Of a stretch of DNA of 64,000 nucleotides, positions 14,411-56,880 are shown one piece after another. Below the pieces are notes generated by a model. It did no database searches. It saw only the letters and a program-made list of their open reading frames with translations, and had not been told where the DNA came from. How positions within the stretch are numbered: position 1 is the first letter of the stretch; every line of letters begins with the position of its first letter. Position numbers and translations under genes: made by a program. The DNA is from Caulobacter sp. FWC26. Its GTDB lineage: Bacteria > Pseudomonadota > Alphaproteobacteria > Caulobacterales > Caulobacteraceae. The DNA lies in assembly GCF_002742645.2 (NCBI RefSeq), contig NZ_CP033875.1:434001-498000 (forward strand). Reading direction: 5' to 3'.

Positions 14411-14445
14411 GATCTGATCGCCCATCATGGTGGTCGCGCGCCGCT

Positions 14446-15682: not shown

Positions 15683-15720
15683 GAACCACACCGTTGGCCT
15701 GAGGCAGCCGGCGACAGGGG

Positions 15721-18092: not shown

Positions 18093-18240
18093 GGTCGAGG
18101 CGCAGGAGTATTTTCCGATAGGTGTGAGGCGGCCACCAGAAAAAGCTATAAATATCTGAATAGACTATCTTTTTCATCCGAATATGATGGGCTCGAACAG
18201 ATCGGAAAGGGCGCTAACGCATCCTCTGTGAACGCCGGAT

Positions 18241-18900: not shown

Positions 18901-19085
18901 GCTGGTCTCCTTTGCGCTGTCCCTAGGCGCACAGCCGCCGCCGGACTTTGCGCCACCGCAATCTGCGCGCCCAGTTGGCGGGGTTGATCGCGTTTGACGC
19001 AGGTCCAGCTTGGTCTTGAGTCTCGTCATTCTCCGGGCCTGGCATGTGGCCTAAACTCTGGACGGCAAATCAGCACGCGTCGAAA

Positions 19086-19099
19086 TTGATGCGCGGCAA
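19086..19099 (+). promoter_or_regulatory. candidate Fnr/Dnr-type box between ric and crp/fnr-2
   Basis: TTGATGCGCGGCAA has a perfect TTGAT left half-site and TTG-N8-CAA spacing. It lies in the divergent gap between ric and the next regulator gene and could control either. Confidence 0.4.
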
Positions 19100-19205
19100 A
19101 GTCCCATGCGCTGGCGCGGCGCAGTATCGGCCCCCTATGTCGGCCGCTCACCGGCGGCTGATCCAGCCGGTGGTCTCGCCGTATCGCTTGTTTGGGGCCC
19201 AGCTC

Positions 19206-19988: not shown

Positions 19989-20130
19989 CGCCTCTCTCTT
20001 GGGGGCGAAGCCTGGGCGGTTGAGCCATCGCAAGGACGCTTGCGCACCATCCATCTGGCGCTCGTCCCGCTGCTGCTTCCAGGGCTGTCGGTGATGCCCG
20101 AGGCGCGCATGGTTTGATCGGGAGTGTCTC

Positions 20131-21321
20131 ATGCGAAATCATAGCCTCACTGTCCTTGCGGGGATTGGCGCGGCCGCCGTGGCGGCGCCGGCTCTGGCTG
20201 GCGAGGCGTCGACCGGAACGCTCATCTTGGACGCCCGCGCGCGCCTCGAGCATTTTGATACAACAAGCGCCGACGCCACGGCCGGCAGTGTTCGGGTGCG
20301 TCTGGGTTGGAAACAGCCGCTGGCCAAGGGGCTGACGGGGCTTGTCGAACTGGAAGCCGTCGGCGCGCCCATCGACGACTATGCCGACGGCGTTCACCCC
20401 TCCCCCGGGCGGGCTGTTATCCCAGATCCCGAGATCCTGGAGCTCAATCGTGCGAGCCTGACCTGGGAGCCTTCCCGGCGCTTGGGCGCAGAGATCGGCC
20501 GCCAGCGCATCATTCTCGGCAACTCCCGGTACGTCGGCAATATCGGCTGGCGGGAGAATGAGCAGACATTCGACGGGGTCAGGTTTTGGGCCAAACCCAA
20601 CCCAGGCGTCACGGTCACCTATGCCTATGTCAGTCGCGTAAACCGGCCCCTGGGGACCAAGTCGCCGCAAGGCGTATGGCGCGGTGACGTCCATCTGGCG
20701 CAGATCGAGACAGATCTTGGCGCTATCGGCAAGGCCAGTGTGTTTGCTCTGCTGACGGATTTCGACAACGCCGCGTCACAGTCCACGCAAACCCTCGGGG
20801 CTCGCCTAGCGGGCGCGCGGGCGATCCGTCCAGGCCTGAGCGCGACCTGGGAACTGGAGCATGCGCGTCAGGGCGATCATGGCGCCAATCCGCAGCGCTT
20901 CTCGGTCAATTATGATCAGGCTTCGATTGGATTGAAGACGGCCCAAACTCAAGCCGCGCTCGTCGTGGAGCGACTGGAGGGAGACGGCGTGCACGCCTTC
21001 CAAACGCCACTGGGGTCGCTGCACGGCTTCCAGGGACGGTCCGATGTCATTGGCGCAACGCCCGGCGTCGGCGTTCGTGACGTGTTTTTGCGCGGCGCGC
21101 GCAGTTTCCGCACCAAGGTCCCCGTCAAGCTGAGCGGTGAACTGCATCAGTTCAACACCACGGTGGGAGACGATCGCCTGGGCCGCGAGGTCGACATCGT
21201 GATCGCCGCGCCGGTCGCCAAGGGCTGGTCGCTTGAAGCGGGGCTGGCCCGGTTCGACAGTGCGGCCCGCCTGTACCCCGACGCGACGCGGGCCTGGCTG
21301 AGCCTGGAGTTCAAGCTTTAG
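20131..21321 (+). CDS. alginate-export-type outer-membrane porin
   Basis: 396-residue beta-barrel protein with a cleavable signal peptide (MRNHSLTVLAG to ALAG, about 23 residues) and C-terminal strand ending in Leu-Glu-Phe-Lys-Leu. The pattern of ARARLEHFD near the mature N-terminus and EIGRQRIILGNSRYVGN near residue 130 is that of the alginate_exp porin family. The transported solute is unknown; placement behind a Crp/Fnr regulator suggests a role under nitrate-respiring conditions, which is inference. GGGAG precedes the ATG. Converges on a methyltransferase gene with a 20-base gap. Confidence 0.8.
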   Translation: MRNHSLTVLAGIGAAAVAAPALAGEASTGTLILDARARLEHFDTTSADATAGSVRVRLGWKQPLAKGLTGLVELEAVGAPIDDYADGVHPSPGRAVIPDPEILELNRASLTWEPSRRLGAEIGRQRIILGNSRYVGNIGWRENEQTFDGVRFWAKPNPGVTVTYAYVSRVNRPLGTKSPQGVWRGDVHLAQIETDLGAIGKASVFALLTDFDNAASQSTQTLGARLAGARAIRPGLSATWELEHARQGDHGANPQRFSVNYDQASIGLKTAQTQAALVVERLEGDGVHAFQTPLGSLHGFQGRSDVIGATPGVGVRDVFLRGARSFRTKVPVKLSGELHQFNTTVGDDRLGREVDIVIAAPVAKGWSLEAGLARFDSAARLYPDATRAWLSLEFKL

Positions 21322-41044: not shown

Positions 41045-41812
41045 GTGGGACGCTCAAGCCAAACTGGAGGCGCGCGATCGCGCCAGGGGCGGCCCTGGGC
41101 GCCGACTAGGCCTAAGCCAGGCACACTGGCCATTCGAGCAGGATCGTCGCCCTTGCCTCCACCGCGTGACTCCTTTGGCTTGGCCCTTACGGCCCTGAGG
41201 CGGCGCCTGCGCCAGGGCGTGGACGCACCGGGCGCGGCGCTGCCAATCAATTTGATCGCTGCTGAGCTGAGGTTATCGACGACGCCGGTGCGCGAAGCGC
41301 TGTCGCGTCTAGCGGGCGAGGAACTCGTTTCGAAGAGCGGCCATGCTTACACCCGGCCGCGCCTTGATCCGCCGTCCCTGGCCGAGCTCTACAATCAGCG
41401 CCTACTCTACCTAACGGCGGCGTTGTCGCCTGAAATGCAGCGGCGATCACGGCGGAGCCCTTGGCCGACGCGGGCCCCGTTTAACGCTTGGGCGCAGCTC
41501 GCCAACCCGGACACGGCTCCATGGGAGGTCGTCGAAGCGCTGTTCCTGGAACTGGTCTTGCGCGCCAACGACCTTGTTCTGGCGCTGGCCTTTCAGCGGA
41601 CGGCTGCACGCCTGGCGCCGTTCGCGCTCCTGGAAGCGCGGTTGGACGATGATCACGCCGCTGAAGCGTCTGGCCTGATCGCCAATTTTGAGACCGGCCA
41701 GATTGCGCCCCTGCGCGCGGCCGTGCGCCAGTATCACCGCCGACGAATGGCGGCGGCCGCGACGATCGTGCGGCTGGCCGAGGACCGCAAATATCCGCCG
41801 GATATCTTTTGA
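41045..41812 (+). CDS. GntR-like regulator of the lasso-peptide locus
   Basis: Up to 255 residues from GTG 41045, but coding character is clear only from about residue 40. Winged helix with INLIAAELRLSTTPVREALSRLAGEELV is a GntR motif; the C-terminal 140 residues are helical like the FCD effector domain but lack an obvious metal triad. True start may be a non-ATG codon nearer 41150. It ends 70 bases before the precursor gene and points the same way; GntR-type genes sit in this position in related Caulobacter-type clusters as I recall. Confidence 0.7.
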   Translation: MGRSSQTGGARSRQGRPWAPTRPKPGTLAIRAGSSPLPPPRDSFGLALTALRRRLRQGVDAPGAALPINLIAAELRLSTTPVREALSRLAGEELVSKSGHAYTRPRLDPPSLAELYNQRLLYLTAALSPEMQRRSRRSPWPTRAPFNAWAQLANPDTAPWEVVEALFLELVLRANDLVLALAFQRTAARLAPFALLEARLDDDHAAEASGLIANFETGQIAPLRAAVRQYHRRRMAAAATIVRLAEDRKYPPDIF

Positions 41813-41881
41813 ATATCAAACTGCAGGGGCGCGGACTTGAAGGGCCGCGATGGGCGGCGATCTTACCAAACGAAGGAGGCC

Positions 41882-42004
41882 ATGATGACCACCCGTCAAA
41901 CTCTGACGCTGATCCGCTTCGGCTCGGCCAAGACCCTCACCCGGGCCCAGCTGCCGTTCGGCCAGATCGAGGCCGAGGATCCCAGCGACCGCTACGGCGT
42001 CTGA
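41882..42004 (+). CDS. lasso peptide precursor
   Basis: A 40-residue protein with GGAGG six bases before ATG 41882 (a second ATG follows at once). The leader, residues 1-21, has LIRFG (L-x3-G) and Thr20 at position -2 to the core, both recognition features of lasso precursors. The predicted core, residues 22-40, is AQLPFGQIEAEDPSDRYGV: Ala1 can form the isopeptide bond with Glu9, giving a 9-residue ring and a 10-residue tail in which Arg16 and Tyr17 may be steric plugs. No acidic residue falls at positions 7-9 in any other register. Ala at position 1 instead of Gly is unusual but known from caulonodin VI. The gene is followed by a strong hairpin and then the B and C genes. Confidence 0.9.
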   Translation: MMTTRQTLTLIRFGSAKTLTRAQLPFGQIEAEDPSDRYGV

Positions 42005-42015
42005 AGTCGCAGGCC

Positions 42016-42045
42016 CGCCGTCGGCGCCCCAAAGCGCCGACGGCG
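42016..42045 (+). promoter_or_regulatory. perfect hairpin between lasso precursor and B gene
   Basis: CGCCGTCGGCGC (42016-42027), loop CCCAAA, GCGCCGACGGCG (42034-42045). No T-run follows, so it is more likely an mRNA-stabilising or processing element or a partial attenuator that raises precursor over enzyme expression than a full terminator. Hairpins at this place are known in proteobacterial lasso operons. Confidence 0.8.
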
Positions 42046-42077
42046 TTGGTTCCACCCTATCATCAAGGCGCTGGCCC

Positions 42078-42758
42078 ATGACTATCGCCCGCCCCTCGAT
42101 CATCGGGCCAGCGCCTAACGCGGTTTGGCTGGCGCCCAAGGTGCGCGCCGCGCGCGTGGACAACGACATCGTCTTTCTCGACATCGGGGCTGACGCCTAC
42201 CTTTGCCTGCCTGGCGCTTCCGATGATCTGCAGCTGGGCCCCGGCGGGGCGGTTGCGCTGGCGAGCGCGGCGTTGGCTGAGACACTGACGCAGGCTGGTC
42301 TGGTGGCGCGCGATCCTCATGGCCGCGTTGAACACGCCATCCCGATGATCGAGCGCGGCCTCGTGGCGTCCACCGAGGTCTTGACGCCCGCCGCCATCAG
42401 CTTAGCCGTCCAGACCAATCGGATCGCCGCCCGCGCGATCGCGGGTTTGCCGCTCGATCAGGTGTTGGCGCTGGCCGGTCCGCTTGACCCGGCCGCCCTG
42501 CAAGCGCCGACGCCGTCGCTGCTGGGCGCCTCAGCCGCCTTCGCCCGCATGGCGCCCTGGTTGCCGTATGCGGGCCTTTGCCTGATGCGCAGTCTTCAGC
42601 AACGCCTGTTCTTAGGCCGGCGCGGCCATGCCGCGGCTTGGGTGTTTGGCGTGCGAACCTGGCCGTTTGAGGCGCACTGCTGGCTTCAGGCCGGAACGGT
42701 CGTGCTCGACGATACGCCAGCCCACGCCGCCCGCTTCACCCCCATCCTTGTGGTCTAA
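42078..42758 (+). CDS. lasso peptide leader peptidase (B protein)
   Basis: 226 residues, single-chain proteobacterial B protein. The N-terminal 85 residues (VRAARVDNDIVFLDIGADAY) look like the RiPP-recognition element that binds the leader; the C-terminal half is the transglutaminase-like protease with Cys168 (YAGLCLMRS), His200 (FEAHCWLQ) and Asp211/212 (VVLDD), the Cys-His-Asp triad. Cleaves after Arg21 of the precursor so that Ala1 becomes free for cyclisation. Two bases separate it from the C gene. Confidence 0.9.
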   Translation: MTIARPSIIGPAPNAVWLAPKVRAARVDNDIVFLDIGADAYLCLPGASDDLQLGPGGAVALASAALAETLTQAGLVARDPHGRVEHAIPMIERGLVASTEVLTPAAISLAVQTNRIAARAIAGLPLDQVLALAGPLDPAALQAPTPSLLGASAAFARMAPWLPYAGLCLMRSLQQRLFLGRRGHAAAWVFGVRTWPFEAHCWLQAGTVVLDDTPAHAARFTPILVV

Positions 42759-42760
42759 GC

Positions 42761-44518
42761 ATGCGCGACTATCTGGTGATCGAGACGGCGGCGGGCGCGG
42801 ACCCTGGTCCCTGGCGCGAGGGCGAGGCTCAGGTTCTGGCCAGCGGCGGCTGGACCAAGGTCGCCGAACGACGCAGGTTTTCGGTGTTCCTGGAGACGGC
42901 GCGGCCCCCGGTCTATCGTCATCTGCCCGGCGCGGCCGGGGCGCTGATCGGCGATGCCTTCGATGCCGCCGCCGCCCGGCGCGGGGTGGGCGCGGCTCTG
43001 GACCTCTTGGGCCTTGGCGTTGACCCTGATCAGATCGCCGAATGCCTGGTGACCCAAGCGTTCGGGCGCTATGTCGCCATCCTCGACGGCGGCGAGGGAC
43101 CCGTGCGCGTCCTGCGCGATCCGCTCGGCGTGATGGAGGCCATCGGCTGGCGGCGCGGTCCGCTGCGGTTCATCGCTTCGCGGCTGCCGGATCTTCCGCA
43201 GCTTTGGCCTCCCGACCTGGCGATCGACTTTGATCGCCTCGCCGCCATTCTGCGCCAGAAGAACCTCGCCAGCCTGATCTGCCCCCTGATCGGTGTGGTC
43301 AGCTATCAGCCCGGCGTGCTGTCGGGGCCCGACGGGCAGGGCGCTCGCCTGTGGTCGCCTGGCGGCTTTGCGCGCCGCCCCATGGCGAACGCCGATCCGG
43401 CCGCGCTGCGGACGGTGCTGGACGGGGTGGTCGCGGCCTGGGCCCTCGGCCGCCAAGGGGTCTTTTGCGAGATCTCCGGAGGTTTGGATTCGGCCATTGT
43501 CGCCACCAGCCTGGCGCGGACCAGGGCGAGGCTGCTCTATGGCCTCAACCACAGCTTTGACCGCGCCGAGGGCGATGAGCGCCTCTACGCCCAGGCGGTG
43601 GCCGACCAGATCGGCGTGCGGCTTGAGGTCGTCGCGCGAGCGCCGCTGCGGCTGGATCCCGCCAAGCTGACCGGCGCGGCCGGCGGCGCGAAACTCAACT
43701 ATGTCGGCGGCGATCCTGACCATGACGCCGACCTGGCCCAGCGCTTGGGCGCGGCGGGGGTTGAGGCGATGTTCACCGGTCGCGGCGGCGATGGGGTCTT
43801 CTACCAGCCCCGCCATCCGGTCCTGGTGCGAGACGTGTTGGCCGGCCGGGCGGGCGTGGGCCGGCTGCGCGGCCTTGATCTTCTGGCCCGGCGCAACGCC
43901 ACCACCGTCTGGCGGCTGATACGCCAGGGCTTGGCGGCCCAAGATATGACGGCGGGCTTGGGCGTGGGGATATTCTTGACGCAGAAGGCTTGCGGCGAGG
44001 CGCAGCGCCATCCCTGGCTGGAGGCCGCGCGCACCCTGGCCCCGGCCAAGCAGCTTCAGATCCTGGCCCTGGTCAACGGGCTAAGCGCCTTTGGCGAAAG
44101 CCAGCGCCACCGGGCCGGCGACGTCATCGATCCGCTGATGAGCCAGCCAGTGGTGGAGTTTTGCCTGTCGGTGGCGGCCGGGCGCTTGGCCGTGGGCGAC
44201 AATGACCGGCCGTTCGCCCGGGCCGCCTTCGCCGAGCGCCTGCCACAAGAGGTGCTCTCGCGTCAGGGCAAGGGCGACCTGACGACCTGGTTCGCGCGCG
44301 GCCTTGGCGACAGTCTGGAGCCGTTGCGGGCTTGGCTGCTGGACGGGCGCCTGGTCGCGGCGGGTCTGGTCGACCGCGCGCGTCTTGACCCGGCGCTCAG
44401 CGTCGCCCAGCTCGTCTGGACCTCCGTCACCTCGGAGCTCTTCGTCCTGATGGCCGCCGAGGCCTGGGTGCGGCGTTGGGAGGCGCGGTTGGCTGCGGTT
44501 CGATCGGGCGCGGCTTAA
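42761..44518 (+). CDS. lasso peptide macrocyclase (C protein, asparagine-synthetase-like)
   Basis: 585 residues. Activates the side chain of core Glu9 with ATP and joins it to the N-terminus of Ala1 to close the ring. The asparagine-synthetase B-type ATP site SGGLDS is at residues 239-244; an N-terminal glutaminase-like domain lacks the catalytic Cys2 of real asparagine synthetases. Length is normal for lasso C proteins. Its TAA stop interleaves with the TAA of the convergent isopeptidase gene in a TTAA palindrome. Confidence 0.92.
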   Translation: MRDYLVIETAAGADPGPWREGEAQVLASGGWTKVAERRRFSVFLETARPPVYRHLPGAAGALIGDAFDAAAARRGVGAALDLLGLGVDPDQIAECLVTQAFGRYVAILDGGEGPVRVLRDPLGVMEAIGWRRGPLRFIASRLPDLPQLWPPDLAIDFDRLAAILRQKNLASLICPLIGVVSYQPGVLSGPDGQGARLWSPGGFARRPMANADPAALRTVLDGVVAAWALGRQGVFCEISGGLDSAIVATSLARTRARLLYGLNHSFDRAEGDERLYAQAVADQIGVRLEVVARAPLRLDPAKLTGAAGGAKLNYVGGDPDHDADLAQRLGAAGVEAMFTGRGGDGVFYQPRHPVLVRDVLAGRAGVGRLRGLDLLARRNATTVWRLIRQGLAAQDMTAGLGVGIFLTQKACGEAQRHPWLEAARTLAPAKQLQILALVNGLSAFGESQRHRAGDVIDPLMSQPVVEFCLSVAAGRLAVGDNDRPFARAAFAERLPQEVLSRQGKGDLTTWFARGLGDSLEPLRAWLLDGRLVAAGLVDRARLDPALSVAQLVWTSVTSELFVLMAAEAWVRRWEARLAAVRSGAA

Positions 44519-46920
44519 GGCGAGGCGGCGGACCTGGCCGGGCCAAGGGTGCGATCCAGCAAATCAAAGACGCGCTGGTGGTAGTCGCGGACATTGGCCG
44601 GGGAAGAGAAGAGATGCCCCTCGCCGCGATAGGTGACGAAGACGGCGTCCTTGTTCTGGCGATAAAGCGCGCTGAACAGCGCCTGGGACTGGTCCAGGCC
44701 CTTGTCGTTGTCGCCGTGGAAGATCAGCACCGGCGCGGTGATCTTGTCGGCGTAGATCACCGGGCTGTTGCGCAGGTAGCGCTGCGGATCCTTCCAGGGC
44801 GGGACCCCCATCCGCGCCTGGCCGCTCTCCTGCCAGCCGGAGGAGGCGTAGATCGTCAGGCCCGATTCCGGTACCGCGTAGACCATGGGACCAAGGCGAC
44901 CATAGCTGTTGATCAAATCCACGGTCGGCGCCGTGGCGATCACCGCCTTGAACCGCGTGCTTTGGCTGGCCGCGCCGATCACGCCGTAGGCGCCATAGCT
45001 GTGGCCCCAGATCGCCACCCTGGCCGGATCAACCCAACCTTGAGCGGCCGCCGCATCGACCGGGGCGAGTATCTGCTCGGCCAGGGCCTCGATCGGCTCG
45101 CGGCCGGCCAGATAGGGCATGGCCGGGACGAGCGCCGCATAACCACGCGCCGCCAGGAGCTGGGCGTTGACCGACAGCTGCAGCACGCCCGGTTCCTGGA
45201 CGCGGGGCGGCGTGGGCGAGGCCGCGCCCGGATAGGGCAGCACCACGACGGGCGGTGGCCGATCGCCTGGGCGCGTGCCGGGCGGTAGGTAGAGCCAGCT
45301 CGTCAGGTCCTGACCATCGACGCCCTTGTGCGGGATGGCGAGCGGCGCGGCGAACGTGACCTTGGCCAAGCCGTCGTTGACGCGGACCAGAGCTCTGGGC
45401 GCGGCGGTCTTGGCTGTCAGCACCACCGTCTCCACGCCCTGCGCGTCCTTGGTGATCTCGACCACGCCCTTGGGGGTGACGGCGAGGATGCGGCCGCGTG
45501 CGCGGGGCGCGGACAGGCGCGGCCCCGGCCAGGGATGGGCGGGGCTTGCCGCCGGATCGACCAGGGCCAGGTCTTTAAGGCGCGGCAGGGTGTTCAGGGC
45601 CCCGCGAAAGCCCTCGACCGGGGCGGCGATCGATTGGACAGCGCTCGGCGCTATTGCCCAGGACCGCGCGCTTTGGGCCGCAACGCGCCAGACCTGGCCA
45701 CCTGCCGCCACCGCCCAGGCGTCCGCGTCGGCGCCGATCGCCTGAAAGTCCTCGCTAAGCTGCGCGGTCAGATTGGTGCGCCTCGCGCCGTCGATGCGCC
45801 AATAGTCCGCCCGGTCGCCGCCCGACGGGCGGGCGCGCACCACCGGCGCGCCGTCAAGCCAGCCGGCCAGCGGCGCGCCGGCGACGTCCCCGGTCGCGCC
45901 GAACGCCGCGGTCAGGCCGCGCATCGGCACGAGGCTTGCTGCGCCGCGCGTCGACAGTCGCCAGAAGCGGCCGTCCTTCCAGGGCGTCGGGCCTTGCCGC
46001 GCGAAGATCAGGAGCTCGCGCCCGTCCGCCGACCAAGACAGGAACCGCCCAGCCGGATCGCAGGCAGGGCAGGGGGTGAGCGTCTCTCCGCTGGTCAGAT
46101 CGGCCAGGACCACGGTTTTGCGCAGCGGCTCTGTGGCGGCGTTGGTGGGCTCAGACGACATCGGCTGGATATCCTCGCCCTCGACCACCACCGCCAGCGC
46201 GCCAGCGCCTGGCGCCAGGGCCATGTCGCGGATGTTTCCGGCCACCAGGAGGCGCTGGGCGCGGGTTATAAGATCGATCCCTAGGACGCCGACGGCGGGC
46301 GCCTTGGGCCGCAGGTCGCGGTGGCGACCGCTGCCGATGGCGGTCACACCCAGCTCCCCGCGGGCCGTGGCCGCCCACTGCTGGTCGATCCGCGCCCGGC
46401 CCTGATAGCCAAAGCCAAAGGTCACGTCGGGAAAGTCGGGTGGCCGGGCCGCGACCAGCAGCTCATCCTCGCTACGCCAAAGCACCGCCGGCCCCCAGAT
46501 CGCCTGGCGAGGGCTGACCCCCAGCCAGCGGGCCTCACCGCTGGTCAGATCGACCACGCCCAGTTCGTAGTCGTGGCCGCGCAGCCGCGCCACCGCCAGG
46601 CGGCGCCCCTTGGGCGAGACGCCGAGCGCGGTGTAGCCCGCGCCGGCCGGGAGGTTGAGGCGCGCCTCGGCGCCGCCGGCCTGGAGGTCGAAGGCCTGGA
46701 TGCGCCCCAGCCGAAGCTTGATGTTGAAATCAAGATCATAGGCGCTGGCCCGGTCCCAGCGATCGTAGCGCTGGACGATCAGCCAGCGCCGGGTCGGATC
46801 GAGCCTGACCGACCCCAGCTGCTCGAGGTTGAGCAGGTGATCGAGCGTAAAGGGGGCGGCTGGGACGGCCGTGGGGACGGCGAGCGCGCAGCCGACCGCG
46901 AGCGCCGCGAAGCGTCGCAT
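44515..46920 (-). CDS. lasso peptide isopeptidase (S9 prolyl-oligopeptidase family)
   Basis: 801 residues: signal peptide (ending near AVPAAP), beta-propeller-like N-terminal half and a C-terminal alpha/beta-hydrolase domain. Catalytic residues are Ser in IWGHSYGAYG, Asp in FHGDNDKG and His in RGEGHLF. Homologues AtxE1/AtxE2 hydrolyse the isopeptide bond of the producer's own lasso peptide and linearise it. Last gene of the sigma-FecR-receptor-isopeptidase operon, 45 bases after the receptor. The signal peptide indicates a periplasmic location, so the peptide would be opened after import. Confidence 0.88.
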   Translation of the reverse strand: MRRFAALAVGCALAVPTAVPAAPFTLDHLLNLEQLGSVRLDPTRRWLIVQRYDRWDRASAYDLDFNIKLRLGRIQAFDLQAGGAEARLNLPAGAGYTALGVSPKGRRLAVARLRGHDYELGVVDLTSGEARWLGVSPRQAIWGPAVLWRSEDELLVAARPPDFPDVTFGFGYQGRARIDQQWAATARGELGVTAIGSGRHRDLRPKAPAVGVLGIDLITRAQRLLVAGNIRDMALAPGAGALAVVVEGEDIQPMSSEPTNAATEPLRKTVVLADLTSGETLTPCPACDPAGRFLSWSADGRELLIFARQGPTPWKDGRFWRLSTRGAASLVPMRGLTAAFGATGDVAGAPLAGWLDGAPVVRARPSGGDRADYWRIDGARRTNLTAQLSEDFQAIGADADAWAVAAGGQVWRVAAQSARSWAIAPSAVQSIAAPVEGFRGALNTLPRLKDLALVDPAASPAHPWPGPRLSAPRARGRILAVTPKGVVEITKDAQGVETVVLTAKTAAPRALVRVNDGLAKVTFAAPLAIPHKGVDGQDLTSWLYLPPGTRPGDRPPPVVVLPYPGAASPTPPRVQEPGVLQLSVNAQLLAARGYAALVPAMPYLAGREPIEALAEQILAPVDAAAAQGWVDPARVAIWGHSYGAYGVIGAASQSTRFKAVIATAPTVDLINSYGRLGPMVYAVPESGLTIYASSGWQESGQARMGVPPWKDPQRYLRNSPVIYADKITAPVLIFHGDNDKGLDQSQALFSALYRQNKDAVFVTYRGEGHLFSSPANVRDYHQRVFDLLDRTLGPARSAASP

Positions 46921-46965
46921 GATGATGTCTCCGAGCAGAAGGGTGGGGGTGGGGGCTCTGTCGCG

Positions 46966-49900
46966 CTACCAGGTCTTGGTCAGCTGCAGGCTTATCATCC
47001 GGCCAAGCGGGTCGGCGTTGGCCGGGTCGTAGCCGATGGCCAGCGGGTTGTCGTAGAACGGCGGATCCTGGTCGAAGAGGTTCTGCACGTTCAGGGTCAA
47101 GGTCAGGTTCCGGGCGGCGAGGACCTCGCCCCGCCAACTGCCCTGCAGGTCGACCGTCGTCCAGGGCGCGATGCGCCGGCCGCTCTCGGTGGCAAGATCG
47201 CCGACATGGTTGACCGAGGTGGTCACCAAAGCCGGTCCATGCGTCCAGCTCGCCGTGATCCGGGCCCGCAGATCCGCCGGATAGCCGGCCTGCCCGGCCA
47301 GTGGGGTCTTGGCCGAGGTCGGGGTGAGCTTGCGCTCATAGCGCGTCAGCCACGAGAGGCTGGCGTTCAGCGCCAAGGGGTCTCCCTTCACCGTGGTGTT
47401 CCAGGCGGCGCTGGCGTCCAGGCCCGCCACGTCGAGGCTGCCGGTGTTGACATAGCGCAGATCGATGATCGCCCCGTAGGTGTCGACCGGGTAGGCCGCC
47501 AGGCCAGACGCGTTGGGATCGGCCATCGCCGCCAGCACCTTGGCCCGATCGGCCGGGTTGGTCGCGGGGCTGAGGAATGTGCGGAACGGGGCGAACTGCG
47601 CCGAGGTCAGGGCCTGGGACAGCACCACCGGCGAGCCGACCCGGTCCTTGAAGGCGGTGCGGTAGGCCGAAAGGCTCAAGGTCAGGTCGGGGACGGCGTT
47701 GGGCGTGAAGGTGACGCCGGCCGTCCACGACCGGGCGGTCTCAGGCCGCAGGTTTGGATTGCCGCCCTGATAGACGAGGCTTGGCACCTGGCCCCCTTGG
47801 GCGCTGACCGCGATCGGCGTGATCGCATAGGGAATATTGAGCTCCGACAGGGCCGGGGCCCGGAACGAGGTTCCGTAGCTGGCCTTGAGCGTCAGGCCAG
47901 GGCGCAGGACCCAGACGAGCCCGACCTTGGGATTGGTGGTGGACCCGACGTCGTCATAGTCCTCGATCCGCCCGGCCAGCGACAACTCCAGCCGCTCGAT
48001 CCCCGGCAGGGCGTTGTCTGGACTCACCAGCGGCGCGTTGAGTTCGGCGTAGGCGCTACGCACCTCGCGGCTGTAGCGGGCCGGGGCCTTGTTGAAGGGC
48101 GCATAGCCCGACAAGAACCGCGCCCCGCCGGTGCGCAGCGCCTCGCGTCGCAGCTGGCCGCCGACCGCCAGGCGCATCAGGCCGCCCGGCAGGCGCAGCA
48201 GCGGGCCGTCAAAGCCAAGATTGACCGATCGGCTTTCGCTGCGGACCTTGGAGAGGTCCCAGCCTGACAGGATGAAGTCCAGCACCGCGGCCTTATTGGA
48301 CCCCTGGCCGATATACGGATTGAAATAGCCGTCGCGCGCGGCGCTAAAGCCGGTCAGCGGGCTGTCGGCGGCAAGGCCCGCCGCCTCGGAGAGGTTGGTG
48401 CTGTTGACCTGGCCAGCGCTGCGGCTGATCCCCAGCTCCTGGGCGTAGCCGCCATGCAGCTCCGCGTTCCAGCCGGCGCCGAGCCGCGTCTTGCCCCCCA
48501 GGCTCAGGCCAAGACTTTCGGCCTCGCCCCAGTTGCGCACCCCGGGGGCTTCGTTCTGGAACGCATAGGCGATGCGTTCGGAGGCCTGGCCCGTCGGCGA
48601 GACGAAGTAGGGATTGGCGGGGGTTAGGATGATGGTGGTGGTCGGGGCGGCGTTATGGGCGTTGATCTTGCGATGGGAAAGACGCAGGTCGCCGCTCAGC
48701 GTCACCAGGCCAAGCGCCTGCTCGGCGGCGATCACTGCGCTGTGGCGGGTCGAGCGTGGGATGACGTCATAGGCCGCCTTCTGATTGGTGCGGTTGACTG
48801 TCCCGGCGGTGAAATCGCCAGGCTTCAGGGCCGTGCCGTCCTGGCCGGCGGGGATGGCGTAGGTGGCGACATAGGCGCCGGCCGCGTTCAGCCGCAGGAT
48901 GTTGCCGGGCGCGCCGGCCACCACGCTGCGTCGGTCGCTCCCACCCAGCGCCCGAAGGTCGGCCTGGCCGGTGAACGGGCGGTCAGCCCCGCGCAGGGCC
49001 TCGTTGCGGGTGTGTTCATAGGCCAGCAAGACATGACCGCCCGACCAGGTGCGGCCCAGGGCCTGACTGCCCAGATACCGGCTGTAGCCGCCTTGGGTGG
49101 CGCTCGCGGCCATCAGCCGGGTCTCGCCGCCGTCAAGATCATGGCGCAGGCGGATGTCGACCACCCCGCCGACCGCGTCGGCCCCATAGAGCGCCGAGGC
49201 CCCGTCGAGCAGGACATTGACCTTGCCCACAGCCACGAACGGGATCGCCGAAAGGTCGGAAAAGTCGCCAAACACCCCAGCGCCGGCCATGCGACGGCCA
49301 TTGACCAGCACCAGGGTCGCATCCGCCCCCAGGCCCCGCAGGTCCACGCCCGTGCCGCGCATGAAATTGGTGCCGTTGGGATCGGCTCCCGTCGAGACGC
49401 TGTCTTCGCTGGCCGTGCCGCCGAACGCTTGGGGCAAGGCCGTCAGGGCCTCGGCGATGCTGGCGTAGCCGCCTTGGTCGATGGCCTCGCGGCTGAGCAC
49501 CACCACCGGCGAGGCGGTGTCCTTCAGGCCACGGATGTGGCTGCCGACCACGATCTCGGCCACCACCGTCGGCTCCTGGGCCGTGACCACCGGGCTTTCG
49601 GCTTGGGCGTGACCGGGATCAGCGGCGGCGCTCCCGGCGGCGTCCAGGACCGTCGCCGTCTGAAAAACCCCGCCGCGCGGGCGCAGCACCAGCACCCGCT
49701 CGCCCGCCTGCCGCAGCTCAAGGTCGCCGCCGGCGATCAGCAGGGCGACCGCTTGCGGCGGGGTCATGCGCCCGTTCACCGCCGGCGCCTGCCGGCCCTC
49801 GACCATCTGGGTGGTGAAGACGATCGATACGCCGGTCTGCTTGGCCAGCGCCAGCAGGGACGCCTCCAGCGGGCCGGCCTGCAAATGCACCTCGGTGGCC

Positions 49901-49998
49901 GTCATGGGCTTGGGTGCGGCCAGCACCGCCGGCGCGGCCCCAGCGGCCAGCGCCATCGTACTCAAGCCCAGCAAGCGGCGAGGCGGACAGATACGCAT
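46966..49998 (-). CDS. TonB-dependent receptor with signalling domain, lasso locus
   Basis: 1010 residues. Signal peptide (to about residue 28), a secretin/TonB N-terminal (STN) domain at about 33-105 that signals to FecR, then plug (VVVLSREAIDQGGYASIAEA, TFGG-like SVSTGADPNGTNF) and a large barrel ending in MISLQLTKTW. STN-containing receptors both import a ligand and trigger their own expression through FecR and an ECF sigma factor. The genomic setting suggests the ligand is the lasso peptide itself or a complex of it; unproven. A 225-base gap before the gene holds a candidate promoter. Confidence 0.92.
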   Translation of the reverse strand: MRICPPRRLLGLSTMALAAGAAPAVLAAPKPMTATEVHLQAGPLEASLLALAKQTGVSIVFTTQMVEGRQAPAVNGRMTPPQAVALLIAGGDLELRQAGERVLVLRPRGGVFQTATVLDAAGSAAADPGHAQAESPVVTAQEPTVVAEIVVGSHIRGLKDTASPVVVLSREAIDQGGYASIAEALTALPQAFGGTASEDSVSTGADPNGTNFMRGTGVDLRGLGADATLVLVNGRRMAGAGVFGDFSDLSAIPFVAVGKVNVLLDGASALYGADAVGGVVDIRLRHDLDGGETRLMAASATQGGYSRYLGSQALGRTWSGGHVLLAYEHTRNEALRGADRPFTGQADLRALGGSDRRSVVAGAPGNILRLNAAGAYVATYAIPAGQDGTALKPGDFTAGTVNRTNQKAAYDVIPRSTRHSAVIAAEQALGLVTLSGDLRLSHRKINAHNAAPTTTIILTPANPYFVSPTGQASERIAYAFQNEAPGVRNWGEAESLGLSLGGKTRLGAGWNAELHGGYAQELGISRSAGQVNSTNLSEAAGLAADSPLTGFSAARDGYFNPYIGQGSNKAAVLDFILSGWDLSKVRSESRSVNLGFDGPLLRLPGGLMRLAVGGQLRREALRTGGARFLSGYAPFNKAPARYSREVRSAYAELNAPLVSPDNALPGIERLELSLAGRIEDYDDVGSTTNPKVGLVWVLRPGLTLKASYGTSFRAPALSELNIPYAITPIAVSAQGGQVPSLVYQGGNPNLRPETARSWTAGVTFTPNAVPDLTLSLSAYRTAFKDRVGSPVVLSQALTSAQFAPFRTFLSPATNPADRAKVLAAMADPNASGLAAYPVDTYGAIIDLRYVNTGSLDVAGLDASAAWNTTVKGDPLALNASLSWLTRYERKLTPTSAKTPLAGQAGYPADLRARITASWTHGPALVTTSVNHVGDLATESGRRIAPWTTVDLQGSWRGEVLAARNLTLTLNVQNLFDQDPPFYDNPLAIGYDPANADPLGRMISLQLTKTW

Positions 49999-50080
49999 TT
50001 GTTTTCCCCCATCACGCCTCGGGGCCGCCGTCTTGGCGGGCGCTGCCGGGCGTGGCGTGGGTGAGACACCTGGGAAGGGC

Positions 50081-50112
50081 TCTTACCCTACCAGGCTTGA
50101 GAAACTTTTATG
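50081..50112 (-). promoter_or_regulatory. candidate ECF-sigma promoter of the lasso receptor
   Basis: Minus-strand pattern AAAGTTTC-N8-GGTAGGG, 83-114 bases before the receptor ATG. A closely similar pattern (AAATTTTC-N7-GGTGAGG) precedes the other FecR-linked receptor at 63356. Two independent FecI-type systems sharing it supports promoter function. Confidence 0.45.
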
Positions 50113-50223
50113 ACATGGGGCGGCGGCCAGGCGGAGCGACCGGGCGGCGCGCGGTGGCGAGCGGGCGCCGGGCTGGGCAAGGCGTCGTCGGCCATTGGCC
50201 CGGCGGTCATGATCTGGGCGCGC

Positions 50224-51255
50224 CTAGCCCGCCGTCAGCTCGACCCCGCCGTCCGGCCGCGGCGTGCTCTTAAGGTCGAGCATGGTCGTCACCCCGTCGA
50301 CGAAGGCGCGGGTGTCGCCCGTGTCGAACACCCCGGTGACGCGCTCCTGGGCCGGGGCGCCGGGGCCCAGCACCACGTGACGGCGGCTATAGCGGTTGAT
50401 CTCGGCCACGGCCTGGGCCAGGGGCACGTCGCGGAAGGTCACTCGGCCCTGCGTCCAGGCGGTCTCGACGGCCACGTCGACGGGAGCGGGCCTGGCGGGA
50501 CCTTGCGGGCGCACGTCCAGGCGTTGGCCCGCGCTCAGGGTCACCGGGGCGGCGTGGCGAGCGGGGCTGCTGACCGCAACCTTGCCTTCGGCCAGGATCA
50601 CCCGCACGCCCTGATCCGCCCGCCAGACCTCGAACCGGGTGCCAAGCGCCCGCACCGCGGTGTCGCCGGCCCTGACGATGAACGGACGGGCCTTGTCGGG
50701 GGCCACGGCGAACATCGCCTGGCCCTTCTCCAGCCAAAGGCGGCGTTCGCCCCGGGCCAAGCGCACGCGCACCCGGCTATTGGTGTTGAGTTCGATGGTC
50801 GAGCCGTCCTCCAGGCTGATGGCCCGCCGCTCGCCCACCGCCGTATCATAGGTCTGGCCCAGCGGCTGGACCACCAGGATCGCGCCGACCAGAAGGCTGG
50901 CGGCGACAAGGCCAAGGCCGCCTATGAGCAGGCCGCGCGGAGGCGCAAGCGCTGCGCGCCAGCCGTCCCTTTCGCGCGGTCGCTGCGCGGCGGCCTGCGC
51001 AATCGCCTGCAGCCTTGGATCATCGGCCAGGGCCCGCGCCGTCGTCGTCAGCCGCTCGATGCGGGTATAGGCCACATCGTTCAGCGTCTCGGCCCGCCAG
51101 GCGAAAAAGGCGTCAACGTCCTGGTAGCTGGGCGCGCCGCTATTGAGGCGGCCATACCACTGGGCGGCCTCGCGCGCGGCACGCTGGGCCTTGGCGTCCG
51201 CCGTCCCGCCGTCTCCCGTCCCGCCGTCGCCGGCCTTGGCGTTCTGCTGGCTCAT
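50224..51255 (-). CDS. FecR-type anti-sigma/sensor protein
   Basis: 343 residues: N-terminal DUF4880-like anti-sigma domain with REAAQWYGRLNSG and DVDAFFAWRAET, a membrane helix near residue 110 (GLLIGGLGLVAASLLVGAIL), FecR beta-domain with ISLEDGSTIELNTNSRVRV and C-terminal STN-binding domain. It couples the receptor signal to the ECF sigma factor. Ten bases after the sigma gene. Confidence 0.9.
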   Translation of the reverse strand: MSQQNAKAGDGGTGDGGTADAKAQRAAREAAQWYGRLNSGAPSYQDVDAFFAWRAETLNDVAYTRIERLTTTARALADDPRLQAIAQAAAQRPRERDGWRAALAPPRGLLIGGLGLVAASLLVGAILVVQPLGQTYDTAVGERRAISLEDGSTIELNTNSRVRVRLARGERRLWLEKGQAMFAVAPDKARPFIVRAGDTAVRALGTRFEVWRADQGVRVILAEGKVAVSSPARHAAPVTLSAGQRLDVRPQGPARPAPVDVAVETAWTQGRVTFRDVPLAQAVAEINRYSRRHVVLGPGAPAQERVTGVFDTGDTRAFVDGVTTMLDLKSTPRPDGGVELTAG

Positions 51256-51265
51256 GGCGCGGCCG

Positions 51266-51850
51266 TCAGCCCCGCATCATCTCGGCGCAGCGCGCGATCG
51301 CCTGGGTCATCCGCTTTTCTACCGCCTTGACCGAAATGCCGCGCAGCTGCGCGATCTCCCGGTAGGTCAGGCCCCTGACATGGTTGAGAGCGAAAACATC
51401 GCGCAACTTGGGCGGCAAGGCGAGCATCATCTGCTCAAACGCCACCGCCAGTTCCTGTTCGCCCGGGGCGGACGGGGCGAGCAGGGGGGCGTGCGGGTCG
51501 GTGGGGCGCTCGCGCCCGGACTTGCGCAGCCGGTTTGCCGCCACGTTGCGGGCGATGCGCATCAGAAGTGACCTTGGGCTGCGCACCGGGCTTGGCGGCG
51601 CATAGCCGTGCACCTTCAGCCAGGTGTCCTGGGCGATGTCGTCAGCCTCTTCGGCGCCATAACGCCAGGCCAGCGCCCGGGTCAGCCAGTCGCGGTGGGC
51701 CAGATAAGCGTCGGCCAGAGGCGGAGCGGGAGGCGTCGTGTCGCTTACGGCCAGGCCCGGCGCGTCATCGCGCGCGAGGCCTTGCGGGGCGTCCTTGCGC
51801 TCGGCGGTCGAGACGGGGCGGTTGGTGTCGGGCGGAGGCATGAGCCGCAT
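51266..51850 (-). CDS. ECF sigma factor, FecI type, lasso locus
   Basis: 194 residues; sigma2 region LAWRYGAEEADDIAQDTWLKV at about residue 60 and sigma4 helix-turn-helix GLTYREIAQLRGISVKAVEKR at about 165, the FecI pattern. Directs transcription of the receptor and isopeptidase genes when the receptor signals. Its promoter region is shared with the divergent Xre gene, whose palindromic operator lies 33-66 bases upstream. Start 51850, or ATG 51841. Confidence 0.9.
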   Translation of the reverse strand: MRLMPPPDTNRPVSTAERKDAPQGLARDDAPGLAVSDTTPPAPPLADAYLAHRDWLTRALAWRYGAEEADDIAQDTWLKVHGYAPPSPVRSPRSLLMRIARNVAANRLRKSGRERPTDPHAPLLAPSAPGEQELAVAFEQMMLALPPKLRDVFALNHVRGLTYREIAQLRGISVKAVEKRMTQAIARCAEMMRG

Positions 51851-52533: not shown

Positions 52534-52976
52534 CGCTGGGCGTCTCGCGCTTGCGCCCGCTCGCGCTCTACGGCGCCGGCTGCGCCGGACGCCGCCGAGC
52601 CCGCTTCGCGGTCTCGGCCCATTCGGGTGACAAGGCGTTACAGCGGTCCGGAGGCTGGCCTGATGTGAGAGGCTGGTTCTCGATCAACCGGAGGACCCCC
52701 GCTGTCGAGATCCATTGCTTAACGGAAGTTGTGTGATTGAGCCCGCTGATCGGGCGCGGTTGCGCGGCGCTGGGCGAATGACTTCGTAGCGATCACTGCG
52801 GCCTGGCGATCCAGAGCCGCGAGGGTGACATTCGAAGCATCCGCCCAGATTGGGCTGTGTTCCGGCTTGCAAAACTAACCCCCTTCTCGGGGAGATAGGC
52901 GTCCAAAGTTGACCCCCTATCCTTGAGGCTTTGATGGCCAGATCGGCGGCTTGTGGAGCTGCGGATCGAGACAGGG

Positions 52977-54491
52977 ATGTTGGTATTGGAGACGGTGGCG
53001 AAGATCCGGCGCGAGCATTTCGCGCGGGGTAAGGGCGTGAAGACGATCGCGCGGGAGATGGGCCTGGCGCGCAACACGGTGCGCAAGGTCTTGAGATCGG
53101 GAGAGACCTCTCTGGTCTACGAGCGGCGCGAGCAGCCGCACCCCAAGCTTGGGACCTTCATCGAGCGCCTGGAGGGCATGTTGGAGGCCAATGCCTCGGG
53201 CCCTCGTAAAGACCGGCTGACGCTGACACGGATCGCCGACCTACTAAGTCGTGAGGGATACGACGGTAGCTATGATGCGGTTCGGCGCTACGCGAGCCGC
53301 TGGGCTGATCAGCGCCGGGGCGTCAGCTCGCCGGTCGAGGCCTTCGTGCCCCTGAGCTTCGCGCCGGGCGACGCCTACCAGTTCGACTGGAGCCACGACC
53401 AGGTGGAGATCGGCGGCACGCCGCTGACGGTGAAGGTGGCCCACCTGCGGCTCAGCCACAGCCGCCGCTTCTACATCCGGGCCTATCCGCGCGAGACCCA
53501 GGAGATGGTGTTCGACGCCCATGCCCGGGCCTTCGCGCTGTTTGGCGGTGTCACCCGGCGGGGCATCTACGACAACATGAAGACCGCCGTGGAGGCGGTG
53601 TTCGCCGGCAAGACCCGGCGCTTCAACCGGCGCTTCGAGCAGATGTGCTCCCACTACCTGATCGAGCCTGTGGCCTGCACCCCGGCCTCGGGCTGGGAGA
53701 AGGGCCAGGTGGAGAACCAGGTCGGCTACGCCCGCGACAACATCTTCAAGCCGCGCCCTCGGTTCAGGACCCTGGAGGAGCTGAACGGCTGGCTGGAAGC
53801 CGAGTGCGAGCGCCGGGCCCGCAACGACCGTCACCCCGAGTATCGCGACCGCACAGTCCAGGAGGTGTTCGAGGCTGAGCGGCCGTTCCTGGCGCCGTTC
53901 GTAGGGCCCTTCGACGGCTTCCACCAGGTCGAGGCCGTCGCCCAGGCCACCTGCCTGATCAACTTCGACCGCAACCGCTACTCGGTGGAGGCCAGGGCGG
54001 CGCGCCGGGCGGTGCAGATCCGAGCCTATGCCGACCGGGTCATGGTCCTGTGCGACGGCGAGGTCGTGGCCGATCATCCCCGCGGCTTTGGGCGCGACCA
54101 CACCGTCTATGACCCCTGGCACTATCTGCCTGTCCTGGCACGCAAGCCTGGGGCGCTGCGCAACGGCGCGCCGTTCCAGGACTGGTCTCTGCCGCCCGCC
54201 CTGACCCGGCTGCGCAAGCGACTGGGCTCGGGCGACGAGGCCGATCGGCGCTTCGTTCGGGTGCTGGCCAGCGTCCTCGACGACGGCCTGGACGCCGTGG
54301 ACGACGCGGTCCGCGAGGCCCTCGACGCCGGCGCCGCCAGTGACGAGGTGATCCTCAACATCCTGGCCCGACGGCGCGAACCGCCCAGGCCCGAGGCGAT
54401 CACCACGTCACAGGCCTTGGCCTTGCGTCATCCGCCGATCGCCGACTGCGCCCGCTACGACCTGCTGCGAGGTCCCCGTGCAGCGGCATGA
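52977..54491 (+). CDS. istA: IS21 transposase IstA
   Basis: 504 residues from ATG 52977 (GTG 52953 is possible). N-terminal helix-turn-helix [20 protein letters not shown], then an rve-type DDE core with Asp in [12 protein letters not shown], Asp in [10 protein letters not shown] and Glu in [10 protein letters not shown], and a C-terminal Mu-type domain. It cuts and joins IS ends together with IstB. Overlaps istB by 14 bases. Confidence 0.92.
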
Positions 54492-55206
54492 GATGATCGA
54501 GGCCCTGGGTCAGCTGGGCCTGAAGGGCATGGCCGCCGCGTTCGACGACGCGGTGACCACGGGCCTGCAGCGCAACCGCACCGCCTTGGAGATGCTGGCC
54601 GACCTGCTCAAGGCCGAGACCGCGCACCGCCAGGCCGCCTCCATCCGCTACCGGATCACCGCCGCCAAGCTGCCGGCGATGAAGGATCTGGCGCGCTTCA
54701 CCTTCGACGGCTCGCCGATCAATGAGGGCCTGGTCCGCGCCCTGCACAGCGGCTCGTTCCTGGCCGATCACCGCAACATCGTCCTGGTCGGCGGCACGGG
54801 CACCGGCAAGACCCACCTGGCCATCGCCATCACCGCCAACGTCGTGCGGGCCGGCGCCCGTGGCCGCTACTTCAACACCGTCGATCTGGTGAACCGCCTT
54901 GAGGACGAGGCCCGGCGCGGCAAGACCGGCGCCTTGGCCGCCCAGCTCTCACGTCTGGACGTCGTGGTGCTCGACGAGCTGGGCTACCTGCCGTTCGCCC
55001 AGTCCGGCGGCCAGCGCCTGTTCCACCTGATCAGCAAGCTCTACGAGCGCACCTCGGTGATCATCACCACCAACCTGACCTTCGGGGAGTGGCCCACCGT
55101 CTTCGGCGACGCCAAGATGACCACGGCGCTGCTCGACCGCCTGACTCATCACTGCGACATCGTCGAGACCGGCAATGACAGCTGGCGGCTCAGGAACCGC
55201 GCCTGA
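54478..55206 (+). CDS. istB: IS21 helper ATPase IstB
   Basis: 242 residues, GTG start inside istA. AAA+ ATPase of the DnaC type with Walker [15 protein letters not shown] near residue 103 and Walker [12 protein letters not shown] near residue 165. It selects target DNA and stimulates IstA. Full length. Confidence 0.93.
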
Positions 55207-55404
55207 CCGGCGCGCCCAGCGTCATCCACAACTTGTTCAACCTCCCCCAGACCCCCTCCGGGCAGCTGAAAGATCAGTGGCTCACTAGGCGGCGACGCGC
55301 TGCGCTAGCTGACCGCTACGCGCCTCGCCGCCGGTCCGGGAACAGAGCGTAGAGGGGTCAACTTTGGACGCATATTGGGGGTCAGCTTTGGACGCCGTTT
55401 GACA

Positions 55405-56148
55405 GGCCTATGGGGATTTGAGCGACGCGCTTGTCCCATGAGGTCGCTGGCGATGCGCTGACCGGCATGGTCGCAAGAGTGTGCCGCCAGTTTTCTCCGT
55501 CACGACGCTGACGTGACCCCCTGAAACTCCTCCAGAAATAACTAGAGTCCGCCTCGACTTGACCTTGCCCCCGACCTTGGACCAGGTCGGGCCGGGATTT
55601 CTCGCCGGTCAGGCGCCGGGCGGGCCATATGGCCCGGCGCCGTTCATGAGCTCGATCGGGCACTTGTCGCCGATCGCGCTGTGGGGACGCTGCTCGTTAT
55701 AGTCCCTACGCCAAGCCTCGCATTTTGAGCGGGCGTCGTCGAGGGACATGAACCAGGCGGTGTTTAGGCATTCAGCCCGGACCTTGCCGTTGAAGGACTC
55801 GGCGAAGGCGTTGTCGGTCGGCTTGCCGGGCCGGCTGAAGTCCAAGGTGACACCGCGCTGGTAGGCCCACAGATCCAGGTCGCGGGAGACAAATTCCGGG
55901 CCGTTGTCGACCCGAATGACCCGCGGATAGCCGACGGCCTTTCCAGCCCGCTCGAGCGTCTGGACCACGTCACAGGCCTTATAGGCAAACCGTGGATCCA
56001 GCGCCGGCGAGAACCGGCTGAAGGTGTCGATGACGGCCAGGATACGGATCTTGCGTTCGTCGAACAACTGATCGTGCAGGAAGTCCATGGCCCAGACATC
56101 GTTGGGCCCGGAGGCCGGCCGACGATCCTCACGCAGCTTGGCCTTGAC
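55405..56148 (-). mobile_element. remnant of an IS3-family element
   Basis: The 3' part of an IS3-type orfB, encoded in 55609-56148, and probable outer end near 55510 where TGACCCCCTGAAACTCCTCC resembles an IS3 terminal repeat. No orfA is present. It borders the IS21 on one side and the IS91-type sequence on the other. Confidence 0.6.
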
Positions 56149-56880
56149 CACCCATTCGACGCGGCGCAGCGGGGCCAGGCGAGCGGCGAAGGCGGCGCGG
56201 TCGGCCAGACTGGCCAGTTCACCGAAGAAGGACAGCTGCCCCTCGGCGTGGGCGGCGGCGAGCTTCTCGAGGAACAGCCGCCGGAACAGCCTGGAGAGCA
56301 CGCGGACCGGCAGGAAGAACCGGGGGCGACAAGAGACCCAGCTCTGTCCGTCTAAGGCGAGGCCGCCGCCGGGGACGATGCAGTGGACATGCGGATGGTG
56401 GGTGAGCGCTGACCCCCAGGTGTGAAGGACGGCCGTCAGGCCGATGCGGGCGCCCAGGCGCCTGGGATCGGCGGCGATGGTCAGCAGGGTCTCGGAGGCG
56501 GCCTTGAACAGGGCGGCGTAGACCACGGCCTGGTTCTGGAAGGCGATGTCGCCGATCTGGGCCGGCAGGGTGAAGACCACGTGGTAGTAGGGCAGCGGCA
56601 ACAGCTCAGCCTGTCGGGCCTCCAGCCAGCGCTGCGCCGCCGCGCCTTGGCACCTTGGACAGTGCCGATTGCGGCAGGAGTTGTAGGCGATCCGCTGATG
56701 GTCGCAGTCCTCGCAGCGCTCGACGTGGCCGCCCAACTGCGCGGTGCGGCAGGCCTGGATCGCCGACATCACCTTGAGCTGAGCCAGGCTCAGATGTCCG
56801 GCTTGGTCGCGACGGAAGGCCTCGCCATGGGCGTTGAAGATGTCAGCGACCTCCAGGACCGGGCGCACAGGCCCGGTCAC
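55609..56880 (-). CDS. chimeric transposase: IS91-type N-terminus fused in frame to IS3-type integrase core
   Basis: 423 residues in one uninterrupted frame. Residues 1-245 are IS91-like: zinc-finger CEDCDHQ and CRNRHCPRC, and the HUH-type THHPHVHCIVPGGG. Residues 246-423 are an IS3 OrfB core: DVWAMDFLHDQ (first Asp), IRVDNGPEFVSRD (second Asp) and FSRPGKPTDNAFAESFNGK (Glu), ending NEQRPHSAIGDKCPIELMN. The IS91 catalytic Tyr region is lost, so rolling-circle activity is not expected; the DDE triad remains but without OrfA. Junction near base 56148. Confidence 0.88.
   Translation of the reverse strand: MTGPVRPVLEVADIFNAHGEAFRRDQAGHLSLAQLKVMSAIQACRTAQLGGHVERCEDCDHQRIAYNSCRNRHCPRCQGAAAQRWLEARQAELLPLPYYHVVFTLPAQIGDIAFQNQAVVYAALFKAASETLLTIAADPRRLGARIGLTAVLHTWGSALTHHPHVHCIVPGGGLALDGQSWVSCRPRFFLPVRVLSRLFRRLFLEKLAAAHAEGQLSFFGELASLADRAAFAARLAPLRRVEWVVKAKLREDRRPASGPNDVWAMDFLHDQLFDERKIRILAVIDTFSRFSPALDPRFAYKACDVVQTLERAGKAVGYPRVIRVDNGPEFVSRDLDLWAYQRGVTLDFSRPGKPTDNAFAESFNGKVRAECLNTAWFMSLDDARSKCEAWRRDYNEQRPHSAIGDKCPIELMNGAGPYGPPGA

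Follow-up and report, generated by a model that had tools for sequence, protein, structure and literature searches.

A predicted caulosegnin-type lasso-peptide locus of Caulobacter sp. FWC26 and its putative operon for sensing, importing and opening the product

The genome of Caulobacter sp. FWC26 carries a lasso-peptide locus in which two gene sets converge, which raises the question of what the second set does with the peptide that the first would make. The locus lies at 41045..51850 of the window, that is, the whole 64,000-nucleotide stretch of DNA that was analysed (positions 434001-498000 of C3, one of the three contigs of a 4.87-Mb genome). Its forward set consists of a GntR regulator, a short precursor, the leader peptidase B and the lasso cyclase C. 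The reverse set consists of an extracytoplasmic function (ECF) sigma factor, a FecR protein, a TonB receptor with an STN domain and an S9 peptidase, hereafter I, R, T and E. We consider it quite probable that this is an isopeptidase-type lasso locus of the caulosegnin branch, with an operon that senses, imports and opens the peptide. At the level of sequence the window is classed as a caulosegnin-type locus, with the caulosegnin cluster as its closest characterised relative, because the exact cores of caulosegnins I, II and III adjoin a class-II peptidase and the same gene set in a genome of the same genus (L195), "class II" being our name for the branch of the window's peptidase. The less expected part is that this peptidase belongs to a common and separate branch. 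The features of the locus are as follows.

41045..41812, forward strand: GntR-type regulator, directly 5′ of the precursor (Pfam GntR, 37.7 bits; cut-off 27)
41873..41879, forward strand: AAGGAGG, a ribosome-binding-like site ahead of the precursor (read from the sequence)
41882..41944, forward strand: precursor leader, 21 residues (20 from the second ATG), ending in LTR (translation and leader pattern)
41945..42001, forward strand: core peptide AQLPFGQIEAEDPSDRYGV with a predicted Ala1-Glu9 ring (cleavage and ring closure both predicted)
42078..42758, forward strand: B, leader peptidase of 226 aa with the B2 domain in its C-terminal half (NF033537, 67 bits; cut-off 33)
42761..44518, forward strand: C, asparagine-synthase-like lasso cyclase of 585 aa (PF00733, 81.8 bits; cut-off 21)
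44515..46920, reverse strand: E, S9-family peptidase and putative lasso-opening enzyme (class II; PF00326, 89.6 bits)
46966..49998, reverse strand: T, TonB-dependent receptor of 1010 aa with an STN signalling domain (Pfam barrel 132, plug 59.5 and STN 31.8 bits, each above its cut-off)
50063..50114, reverse strand: promoter-like element 5′ of T, ending in GTCTC (sequence pattern; putatively sigma-dependent)
50224..51255, reverse strand: R, FecR-type sigma-factor regulator (PF04773, 82.3 bits; cut-off 24)
51266..51850, reverse strand: I, FecI-like ECF sigma factor (Sigma70_r2 and r4_2 above cut-off; TIGR02937 sigma70-ECF, 59.4 bits; cut-off 42.9)

An earlier note, made from the letters of this DNA alone, had claimed eight genes, and all of them were found where it placed them. 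Its description of a complete lasso-peptide locus is supported by the precursor, the B2-domain protein B and the asparagine-synthase-like protein C. The residues Cys168, His200 and Asp212 of B (Cys-His-Asp) are invariant in 13 aligned B proteins, and the N-terminal half of the protein is present ahead of the B2 domain. The NCBIfam cyclase models score C under their cut-offs (NF033535, 32.5 of 525; NF033561, 69.8 of 300), and the FecI-named models score I under theirs. Of the 103 fetched loci with a B match, 95 also have a GntR homologue. In the reverse set, the signalling trio of STN-domain receptor, FecR protein and ECF sigma factor is encoded together, T sits 45 bp upstream of E, the N-terminus of E is signal-peptide-like (judged by eye), and the stop codons of E and C overlap. 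No ABC transporter was detected in the open reading frames (ORFs) of the locus (N = 8) or in the flanking ORFs scanned (N = 10). A convergent set able to detect, import and open the product, as the earlier note had proposed, is supported as a capability.

The frame at 41882-42004 of the forward strand translates to MMTTRQTLTLIRFGSAKTLTR followed by the core AQLPFGQIEAEDPSDRYGV. The leader carries LIRFG (L-x3-G) and Thr at position -2, a pattern common to many precursors of related loci and to the caulosegnin precursors. Frame and leader features were as described in the earlier note, and the 40 residues that it gave become 39 or 40 according to the choice of start. The AAGGAGG site ends two bases ahead of the first ATG and five ahead of the second. 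The true start may be the second ATG, at 41885 (39 aa), because three precursor relatives are 39 aa long. These relatives came from a search of 5.8 billion proteins, which returned four matches at E ≤ 10 including the window's own protein; the E-values of the other three, all public proteins, ranged from 4.5e-14 to 5.5e-13. Their leaders all differ, and the last 14 core residues, GQIEAEDPSDRYGV, are unchanged in all three; one has an identical core, and the other two carry substitutions at ring positions 2 and 5. A chance ORF as the explanation of the precursor was ruled out by such close relatives with an invariant tail. A second precursor copy was not found in the window's own genome by a search of 150 genomes of the order, five of which had a match at E ≤ 0.1, and the precursor sequence had no match in the PDB up to E = 10. 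The precursor gene of the near-identical L047 record differs from the window's by one synonymous change, too few for a selection test; this record and a 79% match of the peptidase E both point to Caulobacter.

Ala1-Glu9 is the best predicted ring and Glu9 the likely ring acid, because the acids at core positions 11 and 12 vary among related cores and Asp15 lies beyond the usual lasso ring sizes. The same ring had been predicted before, and it gains support from Glu at position 9 in four related cores of L015 and L016 (ANLHQGMQEGEDLTDRWGV, ANFPLGEPEPVEFTDKYGI, AQMPVGELENGDLTSRWGI and AQIPYGELESGNPFDGYGV). The cores of related loci, extracted with a text pattern and each counted once, gave a list of 85 distinct entries, at least two of them wrong parses (from L059 and L200); 39 begin with Ala or Ser, and 33 of these 39 have an acid at position 9. 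The monoisotopic mass of the core minus water was computed as 2072.9803 Da, with the doubly charged ion at m/z 1037.497, in agreement with the roughly 2073.0 Da and m/z 1037.5 predicted earlier by hand. The core was missing from Table 1 of a 2025 paper (PMC12427821; 62 rows, compared by eye), and a text search of a limited set of papers with three core strings gave no match, consistent with its having been called unrecognised. The combination of Ala1 and Glu9 is not new, caulonodin VI already having both in that table; the core sequence is new to the table.

A candidate control element lies upstream of T at 50063-50114 of the reverse strand, with the form GTCATAAAAGTTTC-N33-GTCTC. A search for its first half over 103 whole loci gave 18 matches, of which 14 were upstream of T. 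When identical upstream stretches were counted once, the strict form was present in 10 and the relaxed form in 26 of 84 distinct T-upstream stretches (shuffled means, 0.0 and 0.14). Neither form was found upstream of the precursor frame (0/67), fecI (0/76) or gntR (0/72). As the precursor-upstream stretches had been cut from the start of the longest frame, a scan of the 1100 bases before B was made instead: the strict form was present in 0/78 and the relaxed form in 2/78, with shuffles giving 1.35. In the window's own genome, the pattern was searched with a spacing range a little too narrow to include the window's copy; it turned up the copy of the second class-II locus alone and no wider regulon. 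The strict pattern was shaped on six stretches and relaxed after the 14 T-upstream matches, all in the counted data, and more than two thirds of the T-upstream stretches lack the element as written; both points count against the preferred reading of the locus. Without the loci of those six stretches, the relaxed form was present in 23 of 78 T-upstream stretches, including that of the caulosegnin locus, although some of these had been seen before the pattern was written. In Escherichia coli, FecI directs fecA transcription and sigma-70 controls fecIR (PMC9249621). The simplest reading is that the element would be a FecI-type promoter of the receptor-peptidase operon and that peptide synthesis would be under other control.

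The genes suggest the following course of events. B would strip the leader, and C would link the Ala1 amino group to the Glu9 side chain and trap the tail in a 9-residue ring, as homology and core conservation indicate. The peptide would exit the cell by a route outside this locus and bind T from outside, and the signal would pass from the STN domain of T to FecR and on to the FecI-type sigma factor. The sigma factor would turn on the T-E operon from the 50063-50114 element, as FecI does for fecA; T would import the peptide, and E, in the periplasm, would open the ring. The sequence itself shows the genes with their order and conservation, the conserved core, and an element that stands before T but not before the precursor; we infer from it that the ring closes, that T imports the peptide, that the operon depends on the sigma factor and that E hydrolyses the isopeptide bond. 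T is the presumed receptor for this peptide. Clearing or recycling of the sensed peptide fits the layout best.

The scheme depends on E. The receptor, FecR and sigma part of the earlier description stood, and the label "isopeptidase" is less firm, as E is an S9 peptidase that reached 63.5 bits on the AtxE2-family model NF033523, short of the cut-off of 400 for that family. The best NCBIfam match of E is the lasso-peptidase model, which also matches 55 of 55 scanned relatives at E ≤ 0.001. Of the catalytic triad, Ser641 and His769 are conserved throughout the 55 aligned relatives, and Asp739 in all but one. The structure of E was predicted with a pLDDT of 92.4 and a pTM of 0.90. Judging from its context, E probably has isopeptidase activity.

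To survey this context, 199 genomes of the family were taken from a larger group and searched at thresholds of 1e-60 for the AtxE2 type, 1e-40 for class II and 1e-5 for B. The survey gave 125 B loci, 73 class-II loci (merged from 76 rows) and 29 AtxE2-type loci. A class-II gene lay within 8 kb of 66 of the 125 B loci, an AtxE2-type gene within 8 kb of 27, both near none and neither near 32. Conversely, a B gene lay within 8 kb of 66 of the 73 class-II loci and 27 of the 29 AtxE2-type loci. All B candidates were scored in the listed genomes and up to five candidates per genome in the peptidase searches, which makes the peptidase counts lower bounds; the "neither" and "not both" counts could shift. 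Both kinds occur in the window's own genome. On a 298-kb contig lies L013 (G000:C1:16000-34500), where an AtxE2-type gene (583 bits) adjoins a lasso B gene and three precursors whose cores differ from that of the window. L014 (G000:C3:2728000-2746500), the third such locus of the genome, encodes a class-II peptidase and two precursors.

Among named genomes, the best 80 of 130 relatives found with a class-II profile were taken, and B and C were both present in 53 of the 80; this tally and that of gene order count loci, some of which are near-copies or twice present (e.g. L015 and L183). The 27 without both comprise 22 weaker S9 relatives (L067, L074-L094), three contig-end cases (L042, L052, L066), L046, where C is about 9.5 kb away, and L073, with no C in the remaining 2.8 kb. 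In L046, from Phenylobacterium aquaticum, the class-II peptidase and the lasso C gene are separated by an operon (12805-20386) that encodes an RND pump and an outer-membrane efflux protein. L067, from Chloroflexia, encodes a class-II-like peptidase of 817 aa and no other lasso-locus gene in the fetched 20.9 kb. No description of class II as a separate branch was found in the literature searched, a search outside which most primary papers lay.

The separation of the two kinds raises the possibility that class-II peptidases joined lasso loci independently of the AtxE2 type, a serious contender that we rate a little below even. In a tree of 63 domains the two form separate branches that are not adjacent in the best tree, with a support of 100 for the AtxE2 type. 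On a profile of the class-II hydrolase domain, AtxE2-type rows scored 25-72 bits and most non-lasso S9 rows 76-194 bits, the exceptions being L067 (306), L007 (55) and two stray ORFs (22-25 bits). However, the support of the class-II branch is 39, and a joint AtxE2 and class-II branch costs just 4.68 log units and is not rejected (p-AU 0.41). Most of the non-lasso S9 rows, moreover, were fetched by class-II queries, which biases both the profile comparison and the tree toward likeness to class II. A broader proposal, which we advance tentatively and hold somewhat doubtful, is that class II is a second lasso-opening class, distinct from the AtxE2 type and commoner in the family, that each of its peptidases is tied to a self-reinforcing operon for sensing, import and opening, and that some species keep this operon alone and exploit the lasso peptides of others.

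The evidence weighing most against ring opening by E concerns its own kinship. E resembles ordinary S9 peptidases more closely than it does AtxE2, and sequence profile and fold both give the S9 carboxypeptidase 8wt1 as its best PDB match. The Dpp5 model also matches 54 of 55 relatives, and a non-lasso S9 gene of the window's own genome (L010), fetched with the AtxE2 model, reached 102 bits on the class-II profile. These matches to S9 carboxypeptidases and related enzymes, together with a third triad residue that is Asp, as is familiar from ordinary S9 enzymes, would suit a carboxypeptidase or oligopeptidase that shortens the tail, or degrades the peptide once it has opened or unthreaded by itself. 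However, the class-II gene is tightly linked to lasso B, is never accompanied by one of the AtxE2 type beside the same B gene, and occupies the gene slot that AtxE2-type enzymes have in other loci. We regard such a role for E as unlikely, and keep ring opening as the preferred one. Fold as proof of isopeptidase activity was rejected, since S9 carboxypeptidases and other S9 enzymes outrank the known isopeptidases: in Foldseek, SpI-IsoP appears first at rank 27 and AtxE2 at rank 33 (chains at ranks 27-49), although both count among the strong matches. The 50 VIA-align rows shown contained no isopeptidase and are uninformative on family membership.

Seven class-II loci lack a B gene within 8 kb. 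Three of them (L187, L191 and L186) keep the order I-R-T-E, with neither B nor C in the sequence retrieved, and in L186 E is shortened to 513 residues. The other four are a locus with a C gene beside E (G159, L188), one with T, R, E and other genes (G122, L189), and two partial peptidase matches (G131 and G178). In the genomes behind L187 (G190) and L186 (G198), neither the B2 model nor a profile made from 13 B proteins found a B gene; that behind L191 (G147) has two B genes elsewhere. These cassettes suggest that a cell can benefit from sensing and opening a peptide that it does not make (two of 199 genomes, one with a shortened peptidase).

Such cassettes without biosynthesis (L187 and L186) resemble the use of foreign siderophores, and the peptide could accordingly be a reusable siderophore-like carrier that returns with bound cargo, which opening would free. 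The Fec-like regulation and the TonB receptor agree with this, and the hypothesis is already in print (PMC9266682 and PMC11006600). No inner-membrane importer, however, was present among the scanned locus genes and no cargo is known, and a carrier role seems rather improbable. Least probable is that the peptide is mainly a toxin entering close relatives through their T receptors, with E as the maker's immunity: the antimicrobial lasso peptide microcin J25 does enter via a siderophore receptor (PMC11006600) and the core tail is kept in three relatives, but T and E also occur together in two genomes in which no B gene was found, one of them with a shortened E.

The locus lends itself to experiment. 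The peptide has a defined mass, the promoter-like element is delimited and the peptidase falls outside the characterised branch; ring opening, sensing and uptake can therefore be tested separately. The presence of both peptidase kinds in the window's genome makes specificity testable within one strain. If class-II enzymes open lassos, the commoner kind in the 199 genomes scores, in the tested case, far below the NCBI isopeptidase cut-off.

Transposase genes lie on the right flank of the locus (window positions 52953-56880): one has Mu-type and rve domains, and in one ORF IS91-type and rve-type transposase domains are joined.

The layout of the locus is of a known type and not special. In a 2022 review (PMC9266682), GntR-A-B-C together with isopeptidase, TonB receptor and sigma/anti-sigma genes is described as an "almost constant" architecture, and the peptides of these clusters, astexin-1 excepted, as without antimicrobial activity. 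As defined there, the window is such a cluster, with GntR first, a receptor and sigma pair with the peptidase, and no ABC transporter. The caulosegnin cluster of L195 matches the window in gene order and gene direction (I-R-T-E facing C-B-A-GntR), in leader pattern and in peptidase branch. The identities between the two are 34% for GntR, 39% for B, 39% for C (571 residues), 40% for E, 48% for T, 45% for R and 43% for I. The caulosegnin cluster has three Gly1 precursors, whereas the window has one Ala1 precursor; caulosegnins II and III have 9-residue rings (PMC13352647), as predicted for the window. Caulonodins IV-VII, whose source is Caulobacter sp. K31 according to a passage of PMC7549694, have Ala1 or Ser1 cores with Glu9 like that of the window but differ in sequence (PMC12427821, Table 1), and their exact cores had no match in the fetched loci.

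AtxE2 (astexin-2/-3), BenE (benenodin-1) and SpI-IsoP share with E the S9 fold, with an N-terminal propeller and a hydrolase domain, and they occupy the same position among the cluster genes. L181 contains the benenodin-1 core, and its contig carries an AtxE2-type gene about 2 kb away. Aligned over 324 residues with the AtxE2-type enzyme of the same genome, E shows 25% identity, and it lacks the C-terminal tail that AtxE2 and SpI-IsoP share (judged by eye). On the regulatory side, the window resembles FecIRA of E. coli in its ECF sigma factor, FecR, TonB receptor with a signalling domain and putative separate receptor promoter. The fec receptor operon carries iron-citrate transport genes where that of the window has a peptidase, and the ligand of the window's receptor is presumably a peptide.

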